A stretch of DNA of 20,048 nt from a virus. The notes under the pieces are model-generated. The model was not told the DNA's origin. It worked only from the letters and a program-made list of their open reading frames with translations, and searched no databases. Positions 430-18,698 of this stretch are shown here, piece by piece (the first letter of the stretch is position 1; each line of letters begins with the position of its first letter). The DNA lies in IMG/VR virus record IMGVR_UViG_3300035034_000272, positions 1-20,048 of that record; one strand, 5' to 3'. A program made the position numbers and the translations under genes.

Positions 430-1842
430 ATGAAGCAATCAGATCTTTTTGAAGTAGAAGAAGAAGGGGTTGTACTAGATCCTGTAAGAACTACTAGACA
501 AGAAGAGATTGTAAGAAAGTGGAAAGCTAATAATGGTAGAGGTACCTTATTAGCAGTTACAGGTTTTGGCAAATCTAGAACAGCAATGATGGCTGCTAAG
601 GAACTTCTTAGTAGTCCTAATGCTAAAGTAGAAAGAGATGTTACTGTTATAGTTCCTAGTGTGAACTTATATAATGAGTGGAAAGAACGTCTGGCTAGTT
701 ATGATTTTCCTAGTAGAGTCTATATCATAAATACGCTAGTAAATGAGTTTTCTAGAGAACGACCACTCAATACTTCATTACTTATACCAGATGAGTTTCA
801 TAGATATCACTCAGATGTACATGGTACTCTATTCGACATTGTTAATTACAATTTCGTGTTTGGTACTACAGCTACAGTAGACGATGAAGATCCTAAGTTT
901 GTACGGATGAAACAAATAGCTCCTATTATAGACACAGTGACGTTAGAGGAAGCTAGAGAACATGATTGGGTTAGTGATTTTACAATATATAATCTTGGAA
1001 TTGAATTAAGTTCAAAAGAAGATACATATTATAAGAGTCTTCAAAAGCAGTATAATAAATACTTTAAGACCTTTGACTTTGATTATGGCTTAGCTATGGA
1101 ATGCCTATCTAATGATAAGCTTAGAAAGCGTCATGCAGAAGATCTAGGCTGGGAAGAAGGTGCTGTAATGACTCATGCAGTTCAGCTTACTAGAATAGTT
1201 CAGAAGAGAAAAAGCTTTCTCTATGAACTTCCATTAAAAGTAGAGCTTGCAGAGAAGATTATCAGGAAATTTTCTGATGATATATTTATTACATTCAGTG
1301 AATCCAACAAAATAGCGGATGAACTGACTAGACAAATGCCAGATATTTCCGTATCTTATCACAGTGATTTAAGTACACTTATAACAGATAAACGGACAAA
1401 AGAGGTAATAGCAGAGTCTGTTACAATAGATGGTAAAACTAGGTATAAGGACAATACTGGTAGAGCATATGATTGGAAAAGTATTAAAGAAGCATATCCT
1501 AAACTAAGCCTTAGAAGAAAAGGAATAAAGACCAGACGTAAAGAAGCTCTAAAACTGTTTAAGAACAAAGATAATTTAACTAGAGCTATAAATACAGCTA
1601 AAGCTTTAGATGAAGGGGCTAACATCCCACAGATTACAGCTTCTATAGTAACATCTGGTACGTCAAAGACTAGACAGAGTATCCAACGGTTAGGGAGATC
1701 TATCAGAAAAGTAAAGGGTAAAATAGCTTTTCAGGTTGAGATTTATGTCAAGAATACACAAGATGAACTGTGGCTGAGAAGCAGGCAGAAAGAATTAGTA
1801 AACATAAAATGGATAGATACAATAAATGAAATAAACACTTAA
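430..1842 (+). CDS. Superfamily 2 DNA/RNA helicase (DEAD/DEAH-like)
   Basis: A 470-residue ATP-dependent helicase or translocase. Visible motifs in order are Walker A TGFGKSRT (44-51), motif II DEFH (121-124, a DEAH variant after a hydrophobic strand SLLIP), motif III-like GTTAT (145-149) and motif VI QRLGRSIR (419-426) with the arginine finger. These define SF2, closest to the UvsW/RecG/type III restriction style helicases carried by many phages. Likely roles are branch migration, fork restart or clearing R-loops during replication. The length suits two RecA lobes with a modest insert between them and little else. No nuclease or methylase domain is visible, which argues against a restriction subunit. 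It starts directly after the stop of the upstream gene, without a Shine-Dalgarno site. The exact subfamily is uncertain. Confidence 0.92.
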   Translation: MKQSDLFEVEEEGVVLDPVRTTRQEEIVRKWKANNGRGTLLAVTGFGKSRTAMMAAKELLSSPNAKVERDVTVIVPSVNLYNEWKERLASYDFPSRVYIINTLVNEFSRERPLNTSLLIPDEFHRYHSDVHGTLFDIVNYNFVFGTTATVDDEDPKFVRMKQIAPIIDTVTLEEAREHDWVSDFTIYNLGIELSSKEDTYYKSLQKQYNKYFKTFDFDYGLAMECLSNDKLRKRHAEDLGWEEGAVMTHAVQLTRIVQKRKSFLYELPLKVELAEKIIRKFSDDIFITFSESNKIADELTRQMPDISVSYHSDLSTLITDKRTKEVIAESVTIDGKTRYKDNTGRAYDWKSIKEAYPKLSLRRKGIKTRRKEALKLFKNKDNLTRAINTAKALDEGANIPQITASIVTSGTSKTRQSIQRLGRSIRKVKGKIAFQVEIYVKNTQDELWLRSRQKELVNIKWIDTINEINT

Positions 1843-1851
1843 ACGAGTAGT

Positions 1852-2457
1852 ATGGTAATTGAAGTAGATTTTGATTTTTTAATAAAGCACAAGCTAACGA
1901 TTGAGCAGTATATGCTCTGTTATGTATTACAGTTAGATAAAGATTCTGTTGTAGATGGTGAACGTGTAAAACGAAAAGACGGACACCCTGTAGCAATCAT
2001 TTATCGCTATACAGAAAACGTTAAGCCTATGGAATCTGATGAAATGAATGATCTTATAGATCGTGGTTTTGTTAGGAAAACAGGTGATAGGCTTGTGCCA
2101 GATCAACTAGAAATAACAGATAAATTTAAACAGGAGGTATTTAATCACTGGTCTAATTTTGAGCAGTTATTTAATATATATCCAGACAGGATAAGTTTTG
2201 GTCCAGGTAAACATTCAGCTTCCCTTAAATCTCTAGATCGTCCTATGGAAGAAGTAGCAGAGTACTACACAAAGCTAGTTAGGACAAATAAAAAGCATAA
2301 AAAGATACTGAAAATAGTTCAGTGGGCTAAAGAAAAAGATATCATTAGGAAAGGTATACAGAAGTTTATTTATTCCAGAGATTGGGAATTATTAACAGAG
2401 AAGTACCAGTTAGATGAAACTGGTGAAAGTTTTGAAAGTTACGAGGTCTTAATATGA
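1852..2457 (+). CDS. Unknown protein, possible replisome organiser or helicase loader
   Basis: A 201-residue soluble protein that I do not recognise by motif. The N-terminal half (about 1-110) looks like a winged-helix fold: helices, then an EMNDLIDRGFV stretch and a short beta pair (RKTGDRLV). The C-terminal half (about 110-201) is basic and helical (KLVRTNKKHKKILKIVQ) and ends with an acidic tail. Its stop overlaps the ATG of the DnaB-like helicase by four bases (ATGA), so the two are translationally coupled. A winged-helix protein encoded directly before a DnaB-type helicase is a common arrangement for phage replication initiators or helicase loaders, and that is the basis of the suggestion. 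It could equally be a transcription regulator. The coding call is secure; the function is inference. Confidence 0.8.
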   Translation: MVIEVDFDFLIKHKLTIEQYMLCYVLQLDKDSVVDGERVKRKDGHPVAIIYRYTENVKPMESDEMNDLIDRGFVRKTGDRLVPDQLEITDKFKQEVFNHWSNFEQLFNIYPDRISFGPGKHSASLKSLDRPMEEVAEYYTKLVRTNKKHKKILKIVQWAKEKDIIRKGIQKFIYSRDWELLTEKYQLDETGESFESYEVLI

Positions 2458-3734
2458 GTGATGATATCATTCTAAATACTGATTATGATGACTTCGTAGA
2501 TGAAGTAGAGAAAGGTATTAAGGGTGGTAATACACTTATTCCTGTAGGATTACCTAAGTTAAACAGACATATAGGTATAGGTAAAGGTATTTATATCCTT
2601 ATAGGCGGAGAATCAGGTACAGGTAAAACTGCACTTACAGATGAGATGTTTGTCTTAAACCCCTATGACTGGTATATAAGAAACAAGGATAAAACGGATA
2701 AGAAGTTAAGAATTATCTATAGGTCTATGGAAAGATCTAAAACCCACAAAATAGCAAAGTGGGTTTGCCTAAGACTTTGGTTAAAATACAATATATTAGT
2801 AGATGTACCTACAGTACTAGGATGGAGAGTAGATAAAAAACCCATTCCTGTAGAAGTGTATAAGAAGATCAAAGAAGCCAGAGACTATTTTGAAGAAATG
2901 TTTGATATTGTACAAGTTACAGATGGTGCAATCAATCCTACAGGAATGTATAAGCAGTGTAAGACTATCTCTTTATCTGAAGGTTTTCTAATTAAAAGTA
3001 ATGATAAAAAGATTGTAAAAGTTGATAAATACAACCCTAAAGGGGAGGTAATAAAAGAGTTTAGTAATAAACACTACAAGATCAATAAAGCTGGTGTTAA
3101 AGTTTACTATGAAGAAGTTACAATCAAAGGTGAGGTAGAAAAGATTACTCATTATTACACAAAATATTATCCTGATCATCCTAATAGCATAAATGTCATA
3201 CTAGGTGACCATAATGGTAAATGGAAGAATGAGAAGCATGATGGAATGATGCTTAATGATAAACAGACACTTGATAAAGCTTCTGAATACTATGGAGAAT
3301 TAAGAGATATCTACAAATGGAGTCCTATAGCAGTTAATCAGTTTAATAGAAATATTGCAGATACTACTAGAAGAGTAAAGTTGGATCTCACTCCAGAGAA
3401 ACAGGATTTTAAAGGATCAGGTAATATGTATGAGGATGCAGACTTTGTATGTGCAGTATTTAATCCCCATGAGTCAGGTATCAGAGAGTTTAAGAAGTAT
3501 AAGATACCACAATTTAATAACCAAGAAGGGTTTAATAGATTTAGATCTCTTCATATACTGAAAAATTCCTTTGGTGTGGATAACATCATTACAGGGTTAA
3601 ACTTTATAGGAGAGAATGGGCATTTTAATGAAGTAAAAAGACCTACTGAAATGACTACTCTGGATTATAGCCAAGCTGCTAGACCAGAATTAAACCCACC
3701 TAATCCAAATTTAAAAGTACAGCAGTTAATATGA
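2454..3734 (+). CDS. DnaB-like replicative DNA helicase
   Basis: A 426-residue RecA-fold helicase that would unwind the fork as a hexamer. Motifs in order are Walker A GGESGTGKT (51-59), an H1a-like SMERS (91-95, the usual SLEM position), a Walker B-like strand INVILGDHNG with D252, motif H3 IAVNQFNRN (292-300) with Q296, and H4 FKGSGNMYEDADFV (319-332). The DnaB N-terminal primase-interacting domain is absent, as in several phage helicases. Residues of about 170 to 245, between H1a and Walker B, are a long beta-rich insert (many K, V, I, Y) not found in bacterial DnaB. The gene overlaps both neighbours through ATGA junctions, joining it to the putative loader and the Sak4-like ATPase. A RadA-like recombinase is less likely because of the QxNR and GSG...DAD motifs. 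Confidence 0.85.
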   Translation: MSDDIILNTDYDDFVDEVEKGIKGGNTLIPVGLPKLNRHIGIGKGIYILIGGESGTGKTALTDEMFVLNPYDWYIRNKDKTDKKLRIIYRSMERSKTHKIAKWVCLRLWLKYNILVDVPTVLGWRVDKKPIPVEVYKKIKEARDYFEEMFDIVQVTDGAINPTGMYKQCKTISLSEGFLIKSNDKKIVKVDKYNPKGEVIKEFSNKHYKINKAGVKVYYEEVTIKGEVEKITHYYTKYYPDHPNSINVILGDHNGKWKNEKHDGMMLNDKQTLDKASEYYGELRDIYKWSPIAVNQFNRNIADTTRRVKLDLTPEKQDFKGSGNMYEDADFVCAVFNPHESGIREFKKYKIPQFNNQEGFNRFRSLHILKNSFGVDNIITGLNFIGENGHFNEVKRPTEMTTLDYSQAARPELNPPNPNLKVQQLI

Positions 3735-4420
3735 GTAAACTAATAGGAATAGCAGGACCTTCAGGGCATGGTAAGAGTACAAGTTTGCGTAACTTAGATC
3801 ATACCAAAACACTGATGATTAATGTTGCTAATAAAGATCTACCTTTTGAAGGGTCTAGAAAATTATACAACAAAGAGAATAAGAATTACTTAGAAGCTAC
3901 TACAGCAGAAGATATTGTAGCTATTATGAAGAACGTTTCTTCAAAAATGCCCCATATTAAATATGTGGTTATTGATGATTTTCAGTATATTGTAGGGCTA
4001 GAGTTTGTAGAGAAAGCTCTTGAGAAAGGATTTGACAAGTTTAGTTCAATGGCACAGCATATAGTAGAGATTGTGTCTCCTAAATTACATCAAAGGTTAC
4101 GAGATGATCTTTATGTAATTATTCTCACACACGATGAAGTGATAGAAAAGGAATATCAAAAAGCACGTAAAATGAAGACAGCTGGGAAGTTAGTAGATCA
4201 GCATATTACACTAGAAGGATTCTTCACTATTGTATTCTTTACAGATTTAAGGAAAGAAGAAGGTGAAGACGAGATAAGCTATCTATTTAGAACTAGAACA
4301 GATGGAATATGCAATTCTAAGTCACCTATGGGAATGTTTAAAAAGTCACTGATCCCTAATGACTTAGCGCCTATTCTAGTTAGAGTAGAAGAGTACTTTA
4401 GCACAACAGAGAAGAGCTAA
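3731..4420 (+). CDS. Sak4-like RecA-fold ATPase (recombinase)
   Basis: A 229-residue P-loop ATPase. Walker A is GPSGHGKST (9-17). Walker B is YVVIDDFQY (78-86). A downstream strand VIILTHDE (129-136) fits the sensor position of RecA-fold proteins. Size and motif order match the phage Sak4 group, RecA-core ATPases that work in single-strand annealing with a phage SSB. The gene lies directly before the two ssDNA-binding candidates and a few genes before an exonuclease and a resolvase, which supports a recombination role. Its start overlaps the DnaB-like gene stop by four bases. No extra DNA-binding domain is visible. It might instead act as a general AAA-type loader; the sequence alone does not settle this. 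Confidence 0.78.
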   Translation: MSKLIGIAGPSGHGKSTSLRNLDHTKTLMINVANKDLPFEGSRKLYNKENKNYLEATTAEDIVAIMKNVSSKMPHIKYVVIDDFQYIVGLEFVEKALEKGFDKFSSMAQHIVEIVSPKLHQRLRDDLYVIILTHDEVIEKEYQKARKMKTAGKLVDQHITLEGFFTIVFFTDLRKEEGEDEISYLFRTRTDGICNSKSPMGMFKKSLIPNDLAPILVRVEEYFSTTEKS

Positions 4421-4484: not shown

Positions 4485-5021
4485 ATGGACTTAAGCAAAG
4501 CAACAACAGTAAGAAAAAGTTCAATTCAAGAGCAGAATTTTGACTTGAGGTTTATGCATTCAAGCAATAGATTTCAGCTCTCTGACAACTTCTATGCCAA
4601 CAAAGGCATGAATACTAATGGTTTTACTTATCATACTCTCGAAGTTGAGGGTGGTGAAGTAATTCCTCTACTTTCTATCCAGTCTAATGAAGATTCTGTC
4701 TTCTACAAAGGTAAAGAAGGAGATGCAGACAAAGATACAGGATTTGCATACAGTGTCCTCCTGAAAGGTCTCCGAGAAATGGGACTTATCTCTCAAGATG
4801 ACGATGCTAGATTCGATAACTTTGAACTAGTAAATGTAGGTGAGAATGATGGTGCTACATACTATCAGATTAAGCCTTGGGAAGAAGATGAAGAAGACAC
4901 TCCTGAAGAAGCACAAGCAGATCTTACAGGAGCAACTCAAGAAGAAGCAACTAATGAAGAAGTAGAAGAAGTAGAAGAAGTAAATGAAGAAGAAGTAATC
5001 GAGAACGATCCATTTGCTTAG
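4485..5021 (+). CDS. Acidic-tail protein, candidate ssDNA-binding protein
   Basis: A 178-residue protein. The first 130 residues are mixed alpha/beta with short strands (FTYHTLEVEGGEVIPLLSIQ; ATYYQIKPW). From about 132 the chain becomes almost wholly acidic (E, D, T, A), and it ends in ENDPFA. An acidic disordered tail closing with a short hydrophobic tip resembles the protein-interacting tail of bacterial and phage SSBs (which end in DDDIPF in E. coli). The start has no Shine-Dalgarno site. The gene has its own upstream gap with a palindrome and its own downstream terminator, so it is probably expressed at a higher or separate level from its neighbours. I do not recognise the globular part, and the SSB idea rests on the tail and on the position between recombinase and primase. 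Confidence 0.8.
   Translation: MDLSKATTVRKSSIQEQNFDLRFMHSSNRFQLSDNFYANKGMNTNGFTYHTLEVEGGEVIPLLSIQSNEDSVFYKGKEGDADKDTGFAYSVLLKGLREMGLISQDDDARFDNFELVNVGENDGATYYQIKPWEEDEEDTPEEAQADLTGATQEEATNEEVEEVEEVNEEEVIENDPFA
4956..4982 (+). repeat. Three tandem GAAGAAGTA units in the acidic tail
   Basis: Three exact 9-base copies (4956-4964, 4965-4973, 4974-4982), each encoding Glu-Glu-Val, followed by degenerate copies to about 4997. The repeat is in frame and builds the acidic tail; copy number could change by slippage without breaking the frame. Confidence 0.8.
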
Positions 5022-5097: not shown

Positions 5098-5742
5098 ATG
5101 AGTGATTTTAAATTTGGTACCTCAAAAGAAACAATTCAAGATACCAGTGGAGCACCAAGAGTAACTAATCCTTTTCTTGGTAAAGTGAAGCTTGACAGTG
5201 TATCTAAACGTGAAATTATAGGTAGGGATGAAACTGTTTATCCTAATGTTCTTTCTTTTGTGTTTAAAACAATGCCTGGAGTAACAGACATTGCTGATAA
5301 AGAGATTGGTGGGTTCACTATAGAGAAGGCAGAGTGGGAACCTAGAGAAGAAGACGATCAGAAGAAAGTAAATAATAAGACAGGACGTGTTGGATATATT
5401 ATGTCTAAATTCCTGTCAGAAGAAGCTGCTATTATTGATTCTACTCAAATTAAGTCTTGGGAACACTTTGTAGATACTGTTGTTTCAAGATTTGAACAGC
5501 AACCAGAAGCATTTGAGAAAGTGGTTAAAATGAAATCTCCTGCTAGTGAGTATCGGGGAGAAGTATCATTTGGTATCCCTAACTATAAAGGATTTATCCA
5601 AAGTAGTAAAGAAGATAATGCTCTGGCATTCTCAGCTAAAGAAGAGCAAGCTAACGCTAAGTGGTTGGCTACTAAGGGTATATCACCAGATGAAGCACCC
5701 GAAGAAACAGGAAGTTTCGCAGAAGATGATGACTTGTTCTAG
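5098..5742 (+). CDS. Candidate ssDNA-binding protein with acidic C-terminus
   Basis: A 214-residue protein. It opens with FKFGTSKETIQD (4-15), a peptide that recurs at the N-terminus of the primase encoded next. The middle (about 25-165) is mixed strand and helix, including YRGEVSFGIPNYKGFI near 153-168, which looks like a beta-barrel edge. The end, SFAEDDDLF, is a short acidic tail closed by phenylalanine, as in SSB proteins that recruit partners through the tail. Position before the primase, high charge and the tail make an SSB role likely, but I cannot assign a named family from memory. A strong terminator follows at once, and another lies upstream, so this is a separate transcription unit or a highly expressed segment. 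Confidence 0.8.
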   Translation: MSDFKFGTSKETIQDTSGAPRVTNPFLGKVKLDSVSKREIIGRDETVYPNVLSFVFKTMPGVTDIADKEIGGFTIEKAEWEPREEDDQKKVNNKTGRVGYIMSKFLSEEAAIIDSTQIKSWEHFVDTVVSRFEQQPEAFEKVVKMKSPASEYRGEVSFGIPNYKGFIQSSKEDNALAFSAKEEQANAKWLATKGISPDEAPEETGSFAEDDDLF

Positions 5743-5776
5743 ATAAAAGAAAGAAAGATCTATCCGAGTAAATTAG

Positions 5777-5813
5777 AAGGGTAGAGTGGCACGGAGCTTC
5801 TCTACCCTTTTTT
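5777..5813 (+). terminator. Rho-independent terminator abutting the primase start
   Basis: AAGGGTAGAG (5777-5786) pairs with CTCTACCCTT (5800-5809), a 10-bp stem with a 13-base loop, followed by further T residues to 5813. The ATG of the primase gene is at 5825, only 11 bases later. Either the primase is made by read-through, or the hairpin sits in its leader. Confidence 0.82.
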
Positions 5814-5824
5814 AATATAACATT

Positions 5825-6898
5825 ATGCCCCAACTTACATTTGGTACAAGTAAAAAGACTATTGAAGATAAAGTATTATGGAGTAAAGAGAAGATTTTAT
5901 CTCAGGTAGGGCAGGAAGAAATATTTGAACACTTTTTAAAAATTCCTGTTAATTATAGAGGTATGTTTAGAAGTCCTCTAAGAGAAGATGAAAACCCTAC
6001 ATGCTCTTTCAAGTGGATAAGTAACACCTTATGGTTCAGAGACTGGTCAGAAACACACGCTAAAGATTGTTTTGAAATAGTAAAAGAGACCCATCATTGT
6101 GACTTTTATACAGCATTAGAAATTATAGCTAAGGAATTCAATTTAACATTACAGACTCCCAGAGAGGGATTTTCTGCTAGTTCAAAGCTATCTACAGAAA
6201 ATTATAAAAGACGTAAAAACAATGAAAAGAGTATAATAGAAGTTAAAAAACAAAGATTTACATCTACTGATGTAGAGTATCTTAAAAGCTATCATCTTAC
6301 TCATAAGATAGTAAGAGCATACAATGTATTCAGTGTTAAAGCCTTTTGGTTAAATGGTAATAGATTCTATGTATATTCAAAGAATAAGCCTGCTTTAGGT
6401 TACTACTTTGGATTAGATGATAGTGGTAGGCAGAAGTGGAAGATATATTTTTATAAGACCAGAGATAGTTGGAGATTTATAGGAAATACTAATAGGATAA
6501 ATGGATGGATTCAGATACCTGAGAAGGGAAAGAATTTAATTATAACAAAATCATTAAAAGATGTGATGTGTCTAGCTAAGTTTAAGATACCTGCTATAGC
6601 TATGCAGGGAGAGACACAAATACCTTATGATTATATCATAGATGAGTTAAAAAGTAGGTATGATAACATATACACTTTACTGGATTTTGATAGACCTGGT
6701 ATAAGGTCTTCTAATATTATTAAGAAATTATATGATATCCCACCATTATTTCTTACAGATGGTAGTTTTGGATCTAAAGACTATAAACATAAGGATTTTT
6801 CAGACTATTTAAAAGCTGAAGGATCTGATATGGCTACTAAATTAATCCAACATGCTAAGTACAAGTTAAAATACAAGCCTAAATTATTTTTCTTATGA
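5825..6898 (+). CDS. DnaG-type DNA primase with TOPRIM domain
   Basis: A 357-residue primase that would make RNA primers at the fork. The N-terminus carries LTFGTSKKTIED (4-15), shared with the preceding protein. Residues of about 35 to 110 match the CHC2-like region in shape (FRSPLREDENPTCSF at 48-62, then LWFRDW and a helical CFEIV stretch), but the zinc-binding Cys/His positions are replaced. The TOPRIM domain spans about 235-330: IITKSLKDVM (239-248), where the usual catalytic Glu position reads Lys/Ser, then LLDFDRPG (285-292) with D287 and D289, and KDFSDYL (323-329). No helicase domain is fused, since DnaB is encoded separately. Its stop overlaps the resolvase ATG. Primase is by far the best fit; other TOPRIM enzymes lack the CHC2-like front. 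Confidence 0.82.
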   Translation: MPQLTFGTSKKTIEDKVLWSKEKILSQVGQEEIFEHFLKIPVNYRGMFRSPLREDENPTCSFKWISNTLWFRDWSETHAKDCFEIVKETHHCDFYTALEIIAKEFNLTLQTPREGFSASSKLSTENYKRRKNNEKSIIEVKKQRFTSTDVEYLKSYHLTHKIVRAYNVFSVKAFWLNGNRFYVYSKNKPALGYYFGLDDSGRQKWKIYFYKTRDSWRFIGNTNRINGWIQIPEKGKNLIITKSLKDVMCLAKFKIPAIAMQGETQIPYDYIIDELKSRYDNIYTLLDFDRPGIRSSNIIKKLYDIPPLFLTDGSFGSKDYKHKDFSDYLKAEGSDMATKLIQHAKYKLKYKPKLFFL

Positions 6899-14521: not shown

Positions 14522-14648
14522 ATTCAATAACGGTAGAGGGGCAACTCTCTGCCATAATTGTAGTGTAATTATAACAACAGGGCTAACTAAGCAGTTATAT
14601 TGCAATAAGTGTAGAGGTAAAGATGAAAGTGATAAAAAACGTAAATGA
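14478..14648 (+). CDS. 56-residue zinc-ribbon protein overlapping both neighbours
   Basis: A frame from ATG 14478 to TGA 14646-14648, overlapping the end of thyX by 44 bases and the start of the next gene by 26. The protein has CHNC (25-28) and CNKC (42-45), a compact CxxC-13-CxxC zinc ribbon, between basic ends (MKKTKQTTELK and KKRK). Two properly spaced CxxC pairs, and the fact that it covers an otherwise empty 101-base gap, argue against chance. AGGAAA lies upstream. It may bind nucleic acid or a protein partner; no named family is assigned. Confidence 0.65.
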   Translation: MKKTKQTTELKPIHKFNNGRGATLCHNCSVIITTGLTKQLYCNKCRGKDESDKKRK

Positions 14649-15057
14649 TGTATATGAGAAAGCATGCCCACCTTGGATATCAAAACTAAAGTACAATCAG
14701 ATATTTGTATTTGGCTCTAATGAAGCAGGCATTCATGGAGCAGGAGCAGCACTTATGGCTGCTGAATGGGGGGCAAGAGATGGGCAGGGATTTGGACCTT
14801 CTGGTAGAACATTTGCAATACCTACAAAAGATTGGAGGATTAATACTCTGACAAGAATCTCTGTGAGTGCCTATGTAAACAGGTTCGTAGAGTTTGCTAT
14901 GGTCAAGTCTTTAGATGAGTTTTTAGTGACTGAGATAGGCTGTGGGCTAGCTGGATTCACTCCTGAAGAGATGGCTCCCCTATTTATAAATGCTTTTGAT
15001 TTAGATAACGTAAGATTGCCTGTGTCATTCATAGAAATTTTAATGAAAGAAAAATAG
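14623..15057 (+). CDS. A1S_2505-like phage non-structural protein
   Basis: A 144-residue protein with a glycine-rich core: IFVFGSNEAGIHGAGAA (27-43), GARDGQGFGPSGRTFAIPTKD (starting at 50) and VTEIGCGLAGF (about 102-112). This set is typical of a widespread phage and bacterial family often named A1S_2505-type non-structural protein. The glycine-rich loops resemble those of macro domains, which bind ADP-ribose, and FAIPTKD and GCGLAG sit where a ligand pocket would be. The activity is not established to my knowledge. It starts with AGAGG five bases upstream and ends one base before the rIIA start, so it is coupled to the rII pair. A role in ADP-ribose or nucleotide signalling is inference. Confidence 0.75.
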   Translation: MKVIKNVNDVYEKACPPWISKLKYNQIFVFGSNEAGIHGAGAALMAAEWGARDGQGFGPSGRTFAIPTKDWRINTLTRISVSAYVNRFVEFAMVKSLDEFLVTEIGCGLAGFTPEEMAPLFINAFDLDNVRLPVSFIEILMKEK

Positions 15058-15058
15058 T

Positions 15059-17464
15059 ATGAAGTTAAATGTACTGCAAAAAGATAGAAAAATTGATAGT
15101 TCTTCTGATGAGTCTATCCAATATGGTATAGATACTAGTCAGATAGGACTATTGTACGAGATATTAAGTCAATATTCTAATCCTGTAGGGTCTATAGTAA
15201 GAGAGCTTACTACAAATGCTTTTGATGCTCATATAGAGTCTAAATCAGATAAACGAGTTACAGTAGAAGTATCAGAAAAGAATGAGTTAACAAATGCAGA
15301 TTATACTTTTACAGTGAAAGATTCAGGTATAGGATTAAGTCCCGATAGAGTTAGGAATGTATATTCAAGATTCTTAGCATCTACTAAACGGGATAGCAAT
15401 GAACAGCATGGTGCTTTTGGATTAGGAAGTAAATCTCCTTTTAGTTACACAGATCTATTTTATGCAGAGACTGTACATGCAGGTATAGAATATTTTTATG
15501 CTATGCATAAGGGTAAGAACTCTCCTAGTATAGATTTGTTATCTAAAAACCCTACTGATAAACCTAATGGTACTTCTATAAGTATCAACATTAAACCAGG
15601 AGATACAGGCAAATTTAGAAGAGAGATAAAAAGACAGCTTGCTTATTTTGATAACATTAACCATATAAACACAGGAGTAGATAACAATTATAGGATATTT
15701 CAAGGTAATAATTTTGTCTTCAGAGAGCATGCTGCTGACTTAGGTTTAGATAGACCTCATATTTGCTTAGGAAAGGTGTATTACCCTATAGATACAAATA
15801 TTATATCATTACCTTCTCTGGCGCAGACTGATTATTATAGTTATGGCAAAAAACCGTGTAAAACCCCTATAGGATTGAAGTTTGAGATAGGAGAAATTCC
15901 TGTTATCCGGTCAAGGGAAAACCTTGAGTATACAGATGAAGCTATTGATAAGATTAAAGAAAAGTTTGAAGCAGCTAAAGAAGAGCTTCAGGGAATATAT
16001 GATAAGAGTAAAAAGAAAGTACATACAGTTCCTGAATTATTGTTAGCTAAAAAAGTAGAGAAAGAGAAATCTTTATCACTACCAGGCGATGTTTTAATAC
16101 CTCATGCAACTAATATGGTTAAAATGAATGTAGGATTAGAGGGTTTTGAAGACATGCCTAATTACCCTAAACTTTCAGAAGTGGTAAAATTAGTATATAA
16201 AACCCATAAAAGGATAGGACAGGGGAGAGCTAGTCGATCTTTCTACGGTTCAGCTTTAAGTTTCCGTTTAAGCCCTGATAGAATTCAAAAATTCTCAACT
16301 GGTAGTACTTTATACAGAAGTACAAAGTCCTATAGTACTCTTAAAAACAAGTACTTGTATGATGAAGTAGGTGAAAGTGTATTTTACATAGTTAGAAAGA
16401 GATCAGATTCAGATAAAGCTACTGAAGCTAATATTTTAAGGGCCTTTGGATATGATAATTCAGCATTTGATCAGATACCAAAAGAAGATGTTGCTAATAT
16501 TAAAAAATATACATCAGAGTGCTTAAAAATCTTCCATAAAATAACCCAGAACTATGATAATGTAGTAGTACCTAAATGGTTTAAGGATGCTAATAAAGGA
16601 ACAGCTAAGAAAGGTATGTATGATCCATCTACTTCAGAGTTTAAGCCTGAATTAAAGATTCATTTGAAGAGAGCATGTAGTAACTCTGTAAATAGTACTT
16701 ACGGTTTAGTGACTGGGTTTTCTGCTTGGGAACCTAAATTAAAGGAGCTAGTAGAAAATCCCCGTGTACTTACCATTTATGGATTTCAAGATGATTCAGA
16801 TTTGTTAGAAGATCTAGATACATTGTTACATAGGAGGTTACACAGATTTTGGTCTTATAATAGGTCTAAACCTAACAGACTATTAATACTTAAAATTGCT
16901 AAGAGTAAAGAGGAGATTATATTGGCTACAAAGAAGAATGCCATTCATGTTAATGAGTTTGTTTCAAGAAGATCTCAATTACTAGTAAAAACTCTTACTT
17001 ATTTTTATATTTATGACAAGTTAGACTATAAAGCAAAAAAACCAATCAGGTTAATAAAACGTGAAGTAGCTTCTAAAGTATTAAAGCACTTAGGGTTAGA
17101 TGACTTTAACCAGTCTTTAAATAGGACACTTAAAAATATTAATAAGATAGAATTTTCAGAGTTTCCTGTAAGAAATGGAAAGTCAGGAGTTGAGTATAAT
17201 ATTCCAAATTCCTTTCAGCAACTGTTAGAAGATCCTGCTTACTTAAACCCTCACATTCTAGAAGAGTATAAAAGGACACAAGACTTTATAAATAAGTATC
17301 CTTTACTATATAAGATAATGATAACAGAGGACATAGAAGAAGATATACTAGAAGAGCTTCCCTTCTATTTAAAAGGTAAGTCACCAATTAATCCTTCATT
17401 AGAAAGAAGGCTTAAAGAGTATAAAGAACAAAAACAACAATTAAATACGGACAATGATGAGTAA
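15059..17464 (+). CDS. rIIA: RIIA-like GHKL ATPase
   Basis: An 801-residue protein with an N-terminal Hsp90/GyrB/MutL-type ATPase. N box: RELTTNAFDAH (48-58) with E49, N53 and D56. G1: DSGIGLS (88-94). G2: GAFGLGSKSPFSY (118-130). This set and the size match T4 rIIA, whose product is a membrane-associated protein linked to lysis inhibition and to growth in lambda lysogens. The rest (about 200-801) is long and charged, with helical segments; no membrane span is evident. The gene starts one base after the previous stop and overlaps rIIB by 11 bases. MutL, gyrase B and histidine kinase are unlikely because their partner domains are missing and an rIIB follows. Confidence 0.85.
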   Translation: MKLNVLQKDRKIDSSSDESIQYGIDTSQIGLLYEILSQYSNPVGSIVRELTTNAFDAHIESKSDKRVTVEVSEKNELTNADYTFTVKDSGIGLSPDRVRNVYSRFLASTKRDSNEQHGAFGLGSKSPFSYTDLFYAETVHAGIEYFYAMHKGKNSPSIDLLSKNPTDKPNGTSISINIKPGDTGKFRREIKRQLAYFDNINHINTGVDNNYRIFQGNNFVFREHAADLGLDRPHICLGKVYYPIDTNIISLPSLAQTDYYSYGKKPCKTPIGLKFEIGEIPVIRSRENLEYTDEAIDKIKEKFEAAKEELQGIYDKSKKKVHTVPELLLAKKVEKEKSLSLPGDVLIPHATNMVKMNVGLEGFEDMPNYPKLSEVVKLVYKTHKRIGQGRASRSFYGSALSFRLSPDRIQKFSTGSTLYRSTKSYSTLKNKYLYDEVGESVFYIVRKRSDSDKATEANILRAFGYDNSAFDQIPKEDVANIKKYTSECLKIFHKITQNYDNVVVPKWFKDANKGTAKKGMYDPSTSEFKPELKIHLKRACSNSVNSTYGLVTGFSAWEPKLKELVENPRVLTIYGFQDDSDLLEDLDTLLHRRLHRFWSYNRSKPNRLLILKIAKSKEEIILATKKNAIHVNEFVSRRSQLLVKTLTYFYIYDKLDYKAKKPIRLIKREVASKVLKHLGLDDFNQSLNRTLKNINKIEFSEFPVRNGKSGVEYNIPNSFQQLLEDPAYLNPHILEEYKRTQDFINKYPLLYKIMITEDIEEDILEELPFYLKGKSPINPSLERRLKEYKEQKQQLNTDNDE

Positions 17465-18698
17465 TATTCAATTTATTCGCTTTGAAAAGAATCAAATTCT
17501 AGTCAGGTTTGAGGGTATAACCAGAAATATAACAGACGAAGAAGAAAAAGTAGATGAGATTATAGGTGCTTGTAAGATGGTAAAAGAAGATCCTACTGAA
17601 GATAATAAAGGTTATCTGAAAGGTCTTCTTAATCCTATGACTAAGGCTGACTTTAATGATAATTTGGAAATAGATCAGAAGGGTAATCTTTATCTTAAAG
17701 ATACAAAAGAGCCTATGCCTGAAAGTCTGTCTTCTCTATTGAAGATGTATGTAGATAATGGTGATGATATCACATCTTTCATCAATTTCTGGAAACTTTG
17801 CTTAGCTAATCCCAATAAGGTAGCAAGAGACGGTTTCTATACTTATGTAAAAGATTATGGTATTGTTATTACAGACTATGGATATGTTATCTTGTATAAA
17901 GCTGTTAACAAGACCCAAAAAAAGGAGGAGACTGTTATAGATAAGAGTTTCTCTCAGTATGTAAGTTCTCAATACCTCAATATTAAAGGTATGAAGAAGT
18001 CTCCTAAGAACTATCACGTCTTTTGTGTAAACGTATATGACGAAGATGTAGATTCTTATGAAGAAGTCTATAAGATAAGTACCCATAAAGGTATTAAGCC
18101 TAATATTGGAGAAAAGGACGAGATATTAAAAGATCTAGGTGTTCTTCACGATCTTTATAAAGAAGTTATAGAGGTAGGTAAAGAAATGATAGAATCTGAT
18201 GAGCGGGTAGCTGTTTACAAGCCCTGGCATTCAGGTAGTCATGGTATGGAAATTAAACTGGGAGTTCCAGTAACTATGCCTAGAGATAAGTGTGATCCAG
18301 ATATAAATGTTAGCTGCTCATACGGTCTTCATGTAGGCTCACATAAGTATGTACATTCTTTTGGCAGTGGTATGGATTCCATACTAGCTGTTTTAGTTAA
18401 CCCTAAAGATGTAGTAGCTCTTCCAGAGTACGACCACTCTAAGATTAGAGTATGTAGATACTTTCCTTATGCTGAAATTGAACGTAGATGTGATGGAAGC
18501 TGGGAAGAACTTACACATGGTTACTTTGAAGAAGATTTCATTGACTATGATGTAGAAGAAATCAAAGAACGTCTTAAGCATCTGTATGAGCAAAAAGCAG
18601 CAGGTGAAGAGATTGATACAGAAGAAGAAACTAGTCTTAACAGACGGCTTATTATCTTAGAAAATGAAACTGATTGGAACTCAGTAGATAACAGTTAA
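17454..18698 (+). CDS. rIIB: RIIB-like protein
   Basis: A 414-residue protein, longer than T4 rIIB (312). Recognisable elements are INFWKLCLANPNKVARDGFY (about 110-129), followed by ITDYGYVILYKAVNK (139-153), and a C-terminal domain with CSYGLHVGSHKYVHSF (about 285-300) and AVLVNPKDVVALPEYD, close to the CSRGLHV...VNP...VPxD pattern of rIIB. These features and the preceding rIIA define the pair. Two ATGs (17454 and 17457) are possible starts; the first overlaps the rIIA stop by 11 bases. The C-terminal 45 residues are an acidic helical extension. A strong terminator follows, closing the operon. The biochemical function is not established. Confidence 0.85.
   Translation: MMSNIQFIRFEKNQILVRFEGITRNITDEEEKVDEIIGACKMVKEDPTEDNKGYLKGLLNPMTKADFNDNLEIDQKGNLYLKDTKEPMPESLSSLLKMYVDNGDDITSFINFWKLCLANPNKVARDGFYTYVKDYGIVITDYGYVILYKAVNKTQKKEETVIDKSFSQYVSSQYLNIKGMKKSPKNYHVFCVNVYDEDVDSYEEVYKISTHKGIKPNIGEKDEILKDLGVLHDLYKEVIEVGKEMIESDERVAVYKPWHSGSHGMEIKLGVPVTMPRDKCDPDINVSCSYGLHVGSHKYVHSFGSGMDSILAVLVNPKDVVALPEYDHSKIRVCRYFPYAEIERRCDGSWEELTHGYFEEDFIDYDVEEIKERLKHLYEQKAAGEEIDTEEETSLNRRLIILENETDWNSVDNS

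Follow-up and report, generated by a model that had tools for sequence, protein, structure and literature searches.

The window, i.e. the whole 20,048-nucleotide IMG/VR record IMGVR_UViG_3300035034_000272, carries a replication block in the order helicase, Sak4, a 178-aa protein, an OB-fold single-stranded DNA-binding protein (SSB) and a DnaG-type primase. Since the same gene order is found in Suoliviridae and Steigviridae, the record is, judged by its sequence, a fragment of a crAss-like phage, one of a group of gut and aquatic phages that count among the commonest viruses of the human gut. The helicase-Sak4-SSB-primase block, present here with a crAss-like primase and arranged as is common to those two families, is not exclusive to Crassvirales, as Flavobacterium phage FpV4, which lies outside that taxonomic order, also has it; the majority of the primase matches belong to Crassvirales or Flavobacterium phages. 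No virion genes (major capsid protein, portal, terminase) were seen within the 20,048-base record, and a search for relatives in cellular genomes found none. The features considered below are the following.

2454..3734, plus strand: DnaB-like replicative helicase (PF03796, E 1.5e-5, below cut-off; phrog_19, E 2e-9)
3731..4420, plus strand: Sak4-like ATPase (phrog_2872, E 2e-58; serves as a control in relatives)
5098..5742, plus strand: SSB-like OB-fold protein, 214 aa (AF2 model, PrgE match, C-terminal tail, synteny)
5098..5145, plus strand: N-terminal tail of the SSB, residues 1-16, predicted disordered (pLDDT <50)
5113..5142, plus strand: SSB-tail copy of the shared peptide, FGTSKETIQD (ORF translation, degenerate DNA pattern)
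5359..5412, plus strand: SSB core helix 88-105, proposed tail receptor (V91, T95 and G96 match coevolving columns of relatives)
5683..5739, plus strand: acidic C-terminal tail of the SSB, residues 196-214, ending EDDDLF (disordered in the model)
5825..6898, plus strand: DnaG-type primase, 357 aa (phrog_12622 DNA primase, E 7e-46; structural match)
5825..5872, plus strand: N-terminal tail of the primase, residues 1-16, predicted disordered (pLDDT <50)
5840..5869, plus strand: primase-tail copy of the shared peptide, FGTSKKTIED (ORF translation, degenerate DNA pattern)

The 178-aa protein (4485-5021), situated between Sak4 and the SSB, gave no match in family searches, has homologues in lineages L002, L020-L023, L028 and L031-L035, shows an NFDLRF..NRFQLSDNFY-like motif and an acidic C-terminus (here ending NDPFA), and is possibly another ssDNA-related accessory protein. 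Further along the window, RIIA-like and RIIB-like genes (phrog_612 and phrog_609, 15059-18698) adjoin replication and nucleotide-metabolism genes, and a 144-aa protein (14623-15057) is macrodomain-like by eye (VFGSNEAGIHGAGAA). In several Suoliviridae (L048, cr124_1; L054, Bohxovirus; L058, cr131_1) at least one tRNA gene lies between SSB and primase, hence the pair is kept and its spacing is not.

The SSB ORF (214 aa, 5098-5742) begins MSDFKFGTSKETIQD and the primase ORF (357 aa, 5825-6898) begins MPQLTFGTSKKTIED, so both translations bear out the N-terminal FGTSKxTIxD that the first-pass annotation had read in the two proteins. A degenerate DNA pattern for this peptide matches exactly two places in the 20,048-base record (5113-5142 and 5840-5869), in agreement with the earlier statement that no other protein of the window has it, while the reversed control of the pattern gives 0 matches in the same record. 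The ungapped BLOSUM62 score of the two peptides is 44, a value reached by no SSB-primase pair across lineages.

Concerning the two proteins themselves, the primase model has the TOPRIM fold, with a Z of 15.2 to the T7 gp4 primase-helicase and of 12-14 to DnaG cores; against TIGR01391 the protein gives an E of 8e-7, far below the equivalog cut-off. For the SSB, comparison with Pfam, PHROGs, NCBIfam and the PDB sequences yielded no usable match, and the AF2 model (mean pLDDT 80) shows an OB fold whose best PDB match is PrgE, an OB-fold SSB (Z 6.8, rmsd 4.3, 119 aligned residues); this Z alone is modest, and further rows of the search include SSB, RPA and telomere OB proteins. The protein resembles known SSBs in its acidic C-terminal tail with an aromatic end; the last residue is aromatic (F or W) in 13/13 sequences of the SSB alignment, the C-terminal ends being DLPF or MPF in Suoliviridae and Intestiviridae, and in cr3_1 the gene at the syntenic position is annotated as SSB. 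From fold, tail and annotation we infer that the 214-aa protein is an SSB. Its first long strand starts at residue 26 of the model, after the disordered tail, and as residues 1-16 are disordered in both models the peptide appears as a free linear motif and not as part of a shared fold. A common fold as its source is thereby ruled out by the models (disordered tails, OB against TOPRIM), which also uphold the view that the rest of the two proteins is unrelated.

The first-pass annotation had named recurrence of the peptide in distant relatives as support for its proposal. As an exact string the peptide does not recur there: among IMG/VR protein N-termini it is found only in this phage and in one close relative, present on five contigs (L002, L004, L008, L011, L013) with the SSB N-terminus MSNFQFGTSKDTIQD and the primase N-terminus MTQLDFGTNKETIEG, the other IMG/VR matches to the pattern being internal or in an unrelated reading frame. 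What does recur in distant relatives is the sharing itself, since in most crAss-like lineages the SSB and the primase of each phage tend toward a common, lineage-specific N-terminal peptide. SSB and primase carry, respectively, FKASENA/FKANPEI in L023, YSTKTAT/YSTKTAI, YNSSRA/YNAERV or YNKEAA/YNKEKA in Suoliviridae, and MAFSxG/MAFSxG, MAISKG/MISKG, TIGKT/VIGKT or IKANASS/RANSSE in Steigviridae; Flavobacterium phage FpV4, not a member of Crassvirales, has KNIFAVNDTD/KNVFTLDNAD. The likeness is weaker and short in Intestiviridae (RRGINN/RKGIDN, some 10-30 residues into the SSB), comes down to a two- to four-residue aromatic motif in lineages B, D and F, and a clear common SSB/primase peptide is seen in none of L032, L033, L038 and L050. 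Absence of the peptide from homologues, which the earlier note had named as a sign against its proposal, is thus what is seen for the exact string; yet the two proteins alter their peptides together, and this speaks more strongly for the proposal than an unchanged peptide would.

Across 13 lineages, with the Steigviridae-like SSB starts and one primase start moved to an internal Met beforehand, matched pairs have a mean score of 18.5 against 11.4 (sd 0.9) when deranged, a value attained in 0/50,000 derangements and still in 0 when the lineage of the window is taken out. Control pairs that use the gene upstream of the SSB score 10.6 and 11.7. An unrestricted local-alignment test of the N-termini with unmoved starts, a procedure that is noisy for short lineage motifs, also gives 0/20,000.

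To follow the changes along branches, the sample was enlarged by 159 loci and trees were obtained from the primase body minus its tail. Within the Steigviridae-like set, a Phe to Ile/Val switch occurs on 8 branches in the SSB tail and on 9 in the primase tail, 8 of these branches being common to both where 1.2 are expected under random placement (0/50,000). For the Suoliviridae-like phages, the anchor residue of Y-x-T (T, K/R or S/A) shows 6 changes in the SSB and 5 in the primase; 5 of them are shared, against 0.4 expected. A phylogenetic artefact was addressed through these branch counts and through branch-length-weighted resampling. In the window the codons at shared residues differ between SSB and primase (ACC/ACA, TCA/AGT, ACA/ACT), the 45 nucleotides 5' of the two starts are dissimilar (12/45 identical), and codon identity at shared residues is no higher in matched than in mismatched phages, namely 0.42 versus 0.41 in 45 Steigviridae-like pairs and 0.60 versus 0.59 in unique Suoliviridae-like pairs. 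These data agree with the earlier judgement that no recent DNA duplication is involved and, taken together, indicate that the similarity is kept by selection on the peptide.

All well-filled alignment columns of the available neighbours were then compared with the switch branches, a scan that took in the SSB core, the primase body, Sak4 and a 130-aa neighbour. In the Steigviridae-like SSB core, column A201 (numbered as in L168) changes on 6/8 switch branches with 8 changes overall (p 5.6e-7; empirical P for any column of the core 0.0003). At this column Ala accompanies Phe tails (28/30), and Cys, Val, Ile or Phe accompanies Ile/Val tails (21/24), which amounts to a large-for-small exchange. 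In the Suoliviridae-like core, columns G80 and V84 (numbered as in L044), which stand at i and i+4, one helical turn apart, co-change with the tails (p 7e-6 and 3e-5; any column, empirical P 0.0017). The primase bodies do not track the switches (empirical P 0.95 in the Steigviridae-like and 0.29 in the Suoliviridae-like set), Suoliviridae-like Sak4 does not stand out (0.08), and neither Sak4 nor the 130-aa neighbour shows a strong column in the Steigviridae-like set. Hence, among the regions scanned only one SSB-core helix tracks the switches, and it does so in two families.

Profile alignment places G80/V84 at V91/T95 of the window protein, in helix 88-105, with 98.8% probability. A201 falls at about G96 of the same helix, a weak mapping (0.2%) because the Steigviridae-type SSB has no detectable sequence similarity to that of the window. 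Two SSB types without detectable sequence similarity thus both lead to the beginning of a similar helix. The coevolving core residues may form a binding pocket, and since the residues that track the peptide are in the SSB core, the receptor of the tails is probably the SSB rather than the DnaB-like helicase that the first-pass annotation had offered as an example of a docking partner. The idea behind that proposal, a docking signal shared by two replication proteins, holds up well: the peptide belongs to neither fold, is disordered, comes back in distant relatives in lineage-specific form and coevolves at the protein level.

The reading that we consider likely is that each SSB holds on to the core of the next one through its tail and that the primase mimics this tail to load on SSB-coated DNA. 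On single-stranded DNA the disordered N-terminal tail of one SSB would dock on its neighbour at the helix that follows strand 3 and precedes strand 4, and the disordered N-terminus of the primase would act as a mimic of that tail, using the same site on the SSB. The primase would in this way be brought to the SSB filament on the lagging-strand template, or inserted at its end, and its tail would have to follow every change of the SSB pocket. On balance we also favour the broader statement that, in a Flavobacterium phage and most crAss-like lineages, tail, mimic and SSB receptor site coevolve as a three-part lock and key, by which the primase of each phage would stay matched to its own SSB.

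Parts of such an arrangement are already known: SSB tails, SSB-primase contact and mimicry of a filament self-assembly motif. The BRC repeats of BRCA2 mimic the oligomerisation motif of RAD51, a likeness in that a partner copies the self-assembly peptide of a filament protein with an aromatic residue as anchor, although the proteins are unrelated and RAD51 is a recombinase and not an SSB. The C-terminal tail of bacterial SSB binds DnaG, likewise an SSB-primase contact through a short disordered tail, but here it is the primase that bears the tail and the SSB that is the presumed receptor; the crAss-like SSB also retains an acidic, aromatic-ended C-tail. T4 gp32, for whose N-terminus we know of no copy in a primase, docks through its N-terminal B-domain on the neighbouring core, as proposed for the SSB of the window. 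Residues 1-21 of gp32 contact the adjacent gp32 core, leading to cooperative filaments, and differ from the tails considered here in being largely helical (PMC10484735). In PrgE, the closest structure noted above (Z 6.8) and an OB-fold SSB of plasmid pCF10 (PDB 8s4s, 8s4t), the N-terminal tail binds the neighbouring subunit on single-stranded DNA and is needed for cooperative binding, as seen with a deletion variant without 12 residues (PMC11137577). PrgE differs in that no primase with a copy of its tail is described (PMC11137577), in that its sequence similarity to the window SSB is undetectable, and in that it also binds double-stranded DNA.

The main rival has both tails docking on a further component of the replisome, such as the DnaB-like helicase, the DNA polymerase or a clamp, with which both would coevolve. 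Proteins with the same linear motif usually do have a common third partner, and the helicase, SSB and primase genes cluster; however, such a partner does not predict switch-tracking columns in the SSB core, which are found in two families, and no tracking of the switches is seen in Sak4, in the 130-aa neighbour or in the primase body. We regard this reading as unlikely. It is improbable, in our estimation, that the SSB tail folds back and clasps the core of its own molecule, in autoinhibition or as a DNA mimic, and that the primase tail opens this clasp by competition for the pocket, so that the SSB would be displaced and no docking on a filament would take place. The tail-core coevolution of the two families fits docking in cis or in trans alike, but in the structural precedents docking is in trans and favours cooperative binding, and the model of the SSB monomer shows a disordered tail that does not pack on its own core.

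The coevolution and codon data bear also on an effect of the nucleic acid itself: one gene start could have been copied recently from the other or converted by it, or the two start codons could lie within an RNA control element. In a small sample of pairs codon identity had been 45/63 against 29.7 expected from gene-start codon usage; this excess vanishes with the better control, i.e. the same residues in mismatched phages (45 Steigviridae-like and 61 Suoliviridae-like pairs), the upstream DNA is dissimilar, and copying cannot explain a co-change with SSB core residues. Gene conversion and an RNA element are rejected on the codon controls and the unlike upstream DNA, and we give this explanation next to no credence. 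A localisation or processing signal (directed, for example, to a replication compartment or a maturation protease), which the earlier note had entertained, would suit a peptide that is short, disordered and N-terminal in two proteins of a single pathway; a general signal should, however, mark more proteins, whereas in the whole Bohxovirus genome only the SSB and the primase carry the peptide, and the same is seen in half of FpV4. Nor should a general signal track SSB core residues, and the proposal, left without support, is very improbable. Docking of the SSB tail on a neighbouring SSB core, copied by the primase, stays the reading that we prefer.

A beta-clamp-binding motif (QLxLF type) was considered as an explanation and occurs neither in FGTSKxTIxD nor in the SSB tails, Q-x-x-L-F being seen only beside the shared motif in some primases. 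As separate observations, the primases of L020 (6744-6776) and L028 (5959-5989) begin MSKTQSDLF and MSQQSDLF, the clamp-like motif overlapping the SSB-like tail; the UvsW-like helicase has a similar N-terminus in the window (430-450, MKQSDLF) and in L002, of the same lineage (73-93, MSQTNLF); and polymerase-like ORFs of L020 and L021 end in the clamp-binding-like KQQSLF and KQLSLF. At the level of sequence, these motifs suggest use of a sliding clamp and motif shuffling between replisome proteins.

The open literature, which leaves most subscription journals outside, contained no account that we could find of a shared SSB/primase peptide in crAss-like phages, nor of the combination of tails, contact and mimicry; the biochemistry of crAss-like phage replisomes was likewise not found in the open literature. 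Tails that are common to unrelated neighbours and switch on the same branches offer a general route to docking partners, and the residue exchanges named here allow a direct test of lineage specificity. If the proposal is true, a replication enzyme bears a copy of the peptide through which the filament that it works on assembles itself, which offers a specific mechanism by which the primase may be brought to the lagging strand in crAss-like phages.
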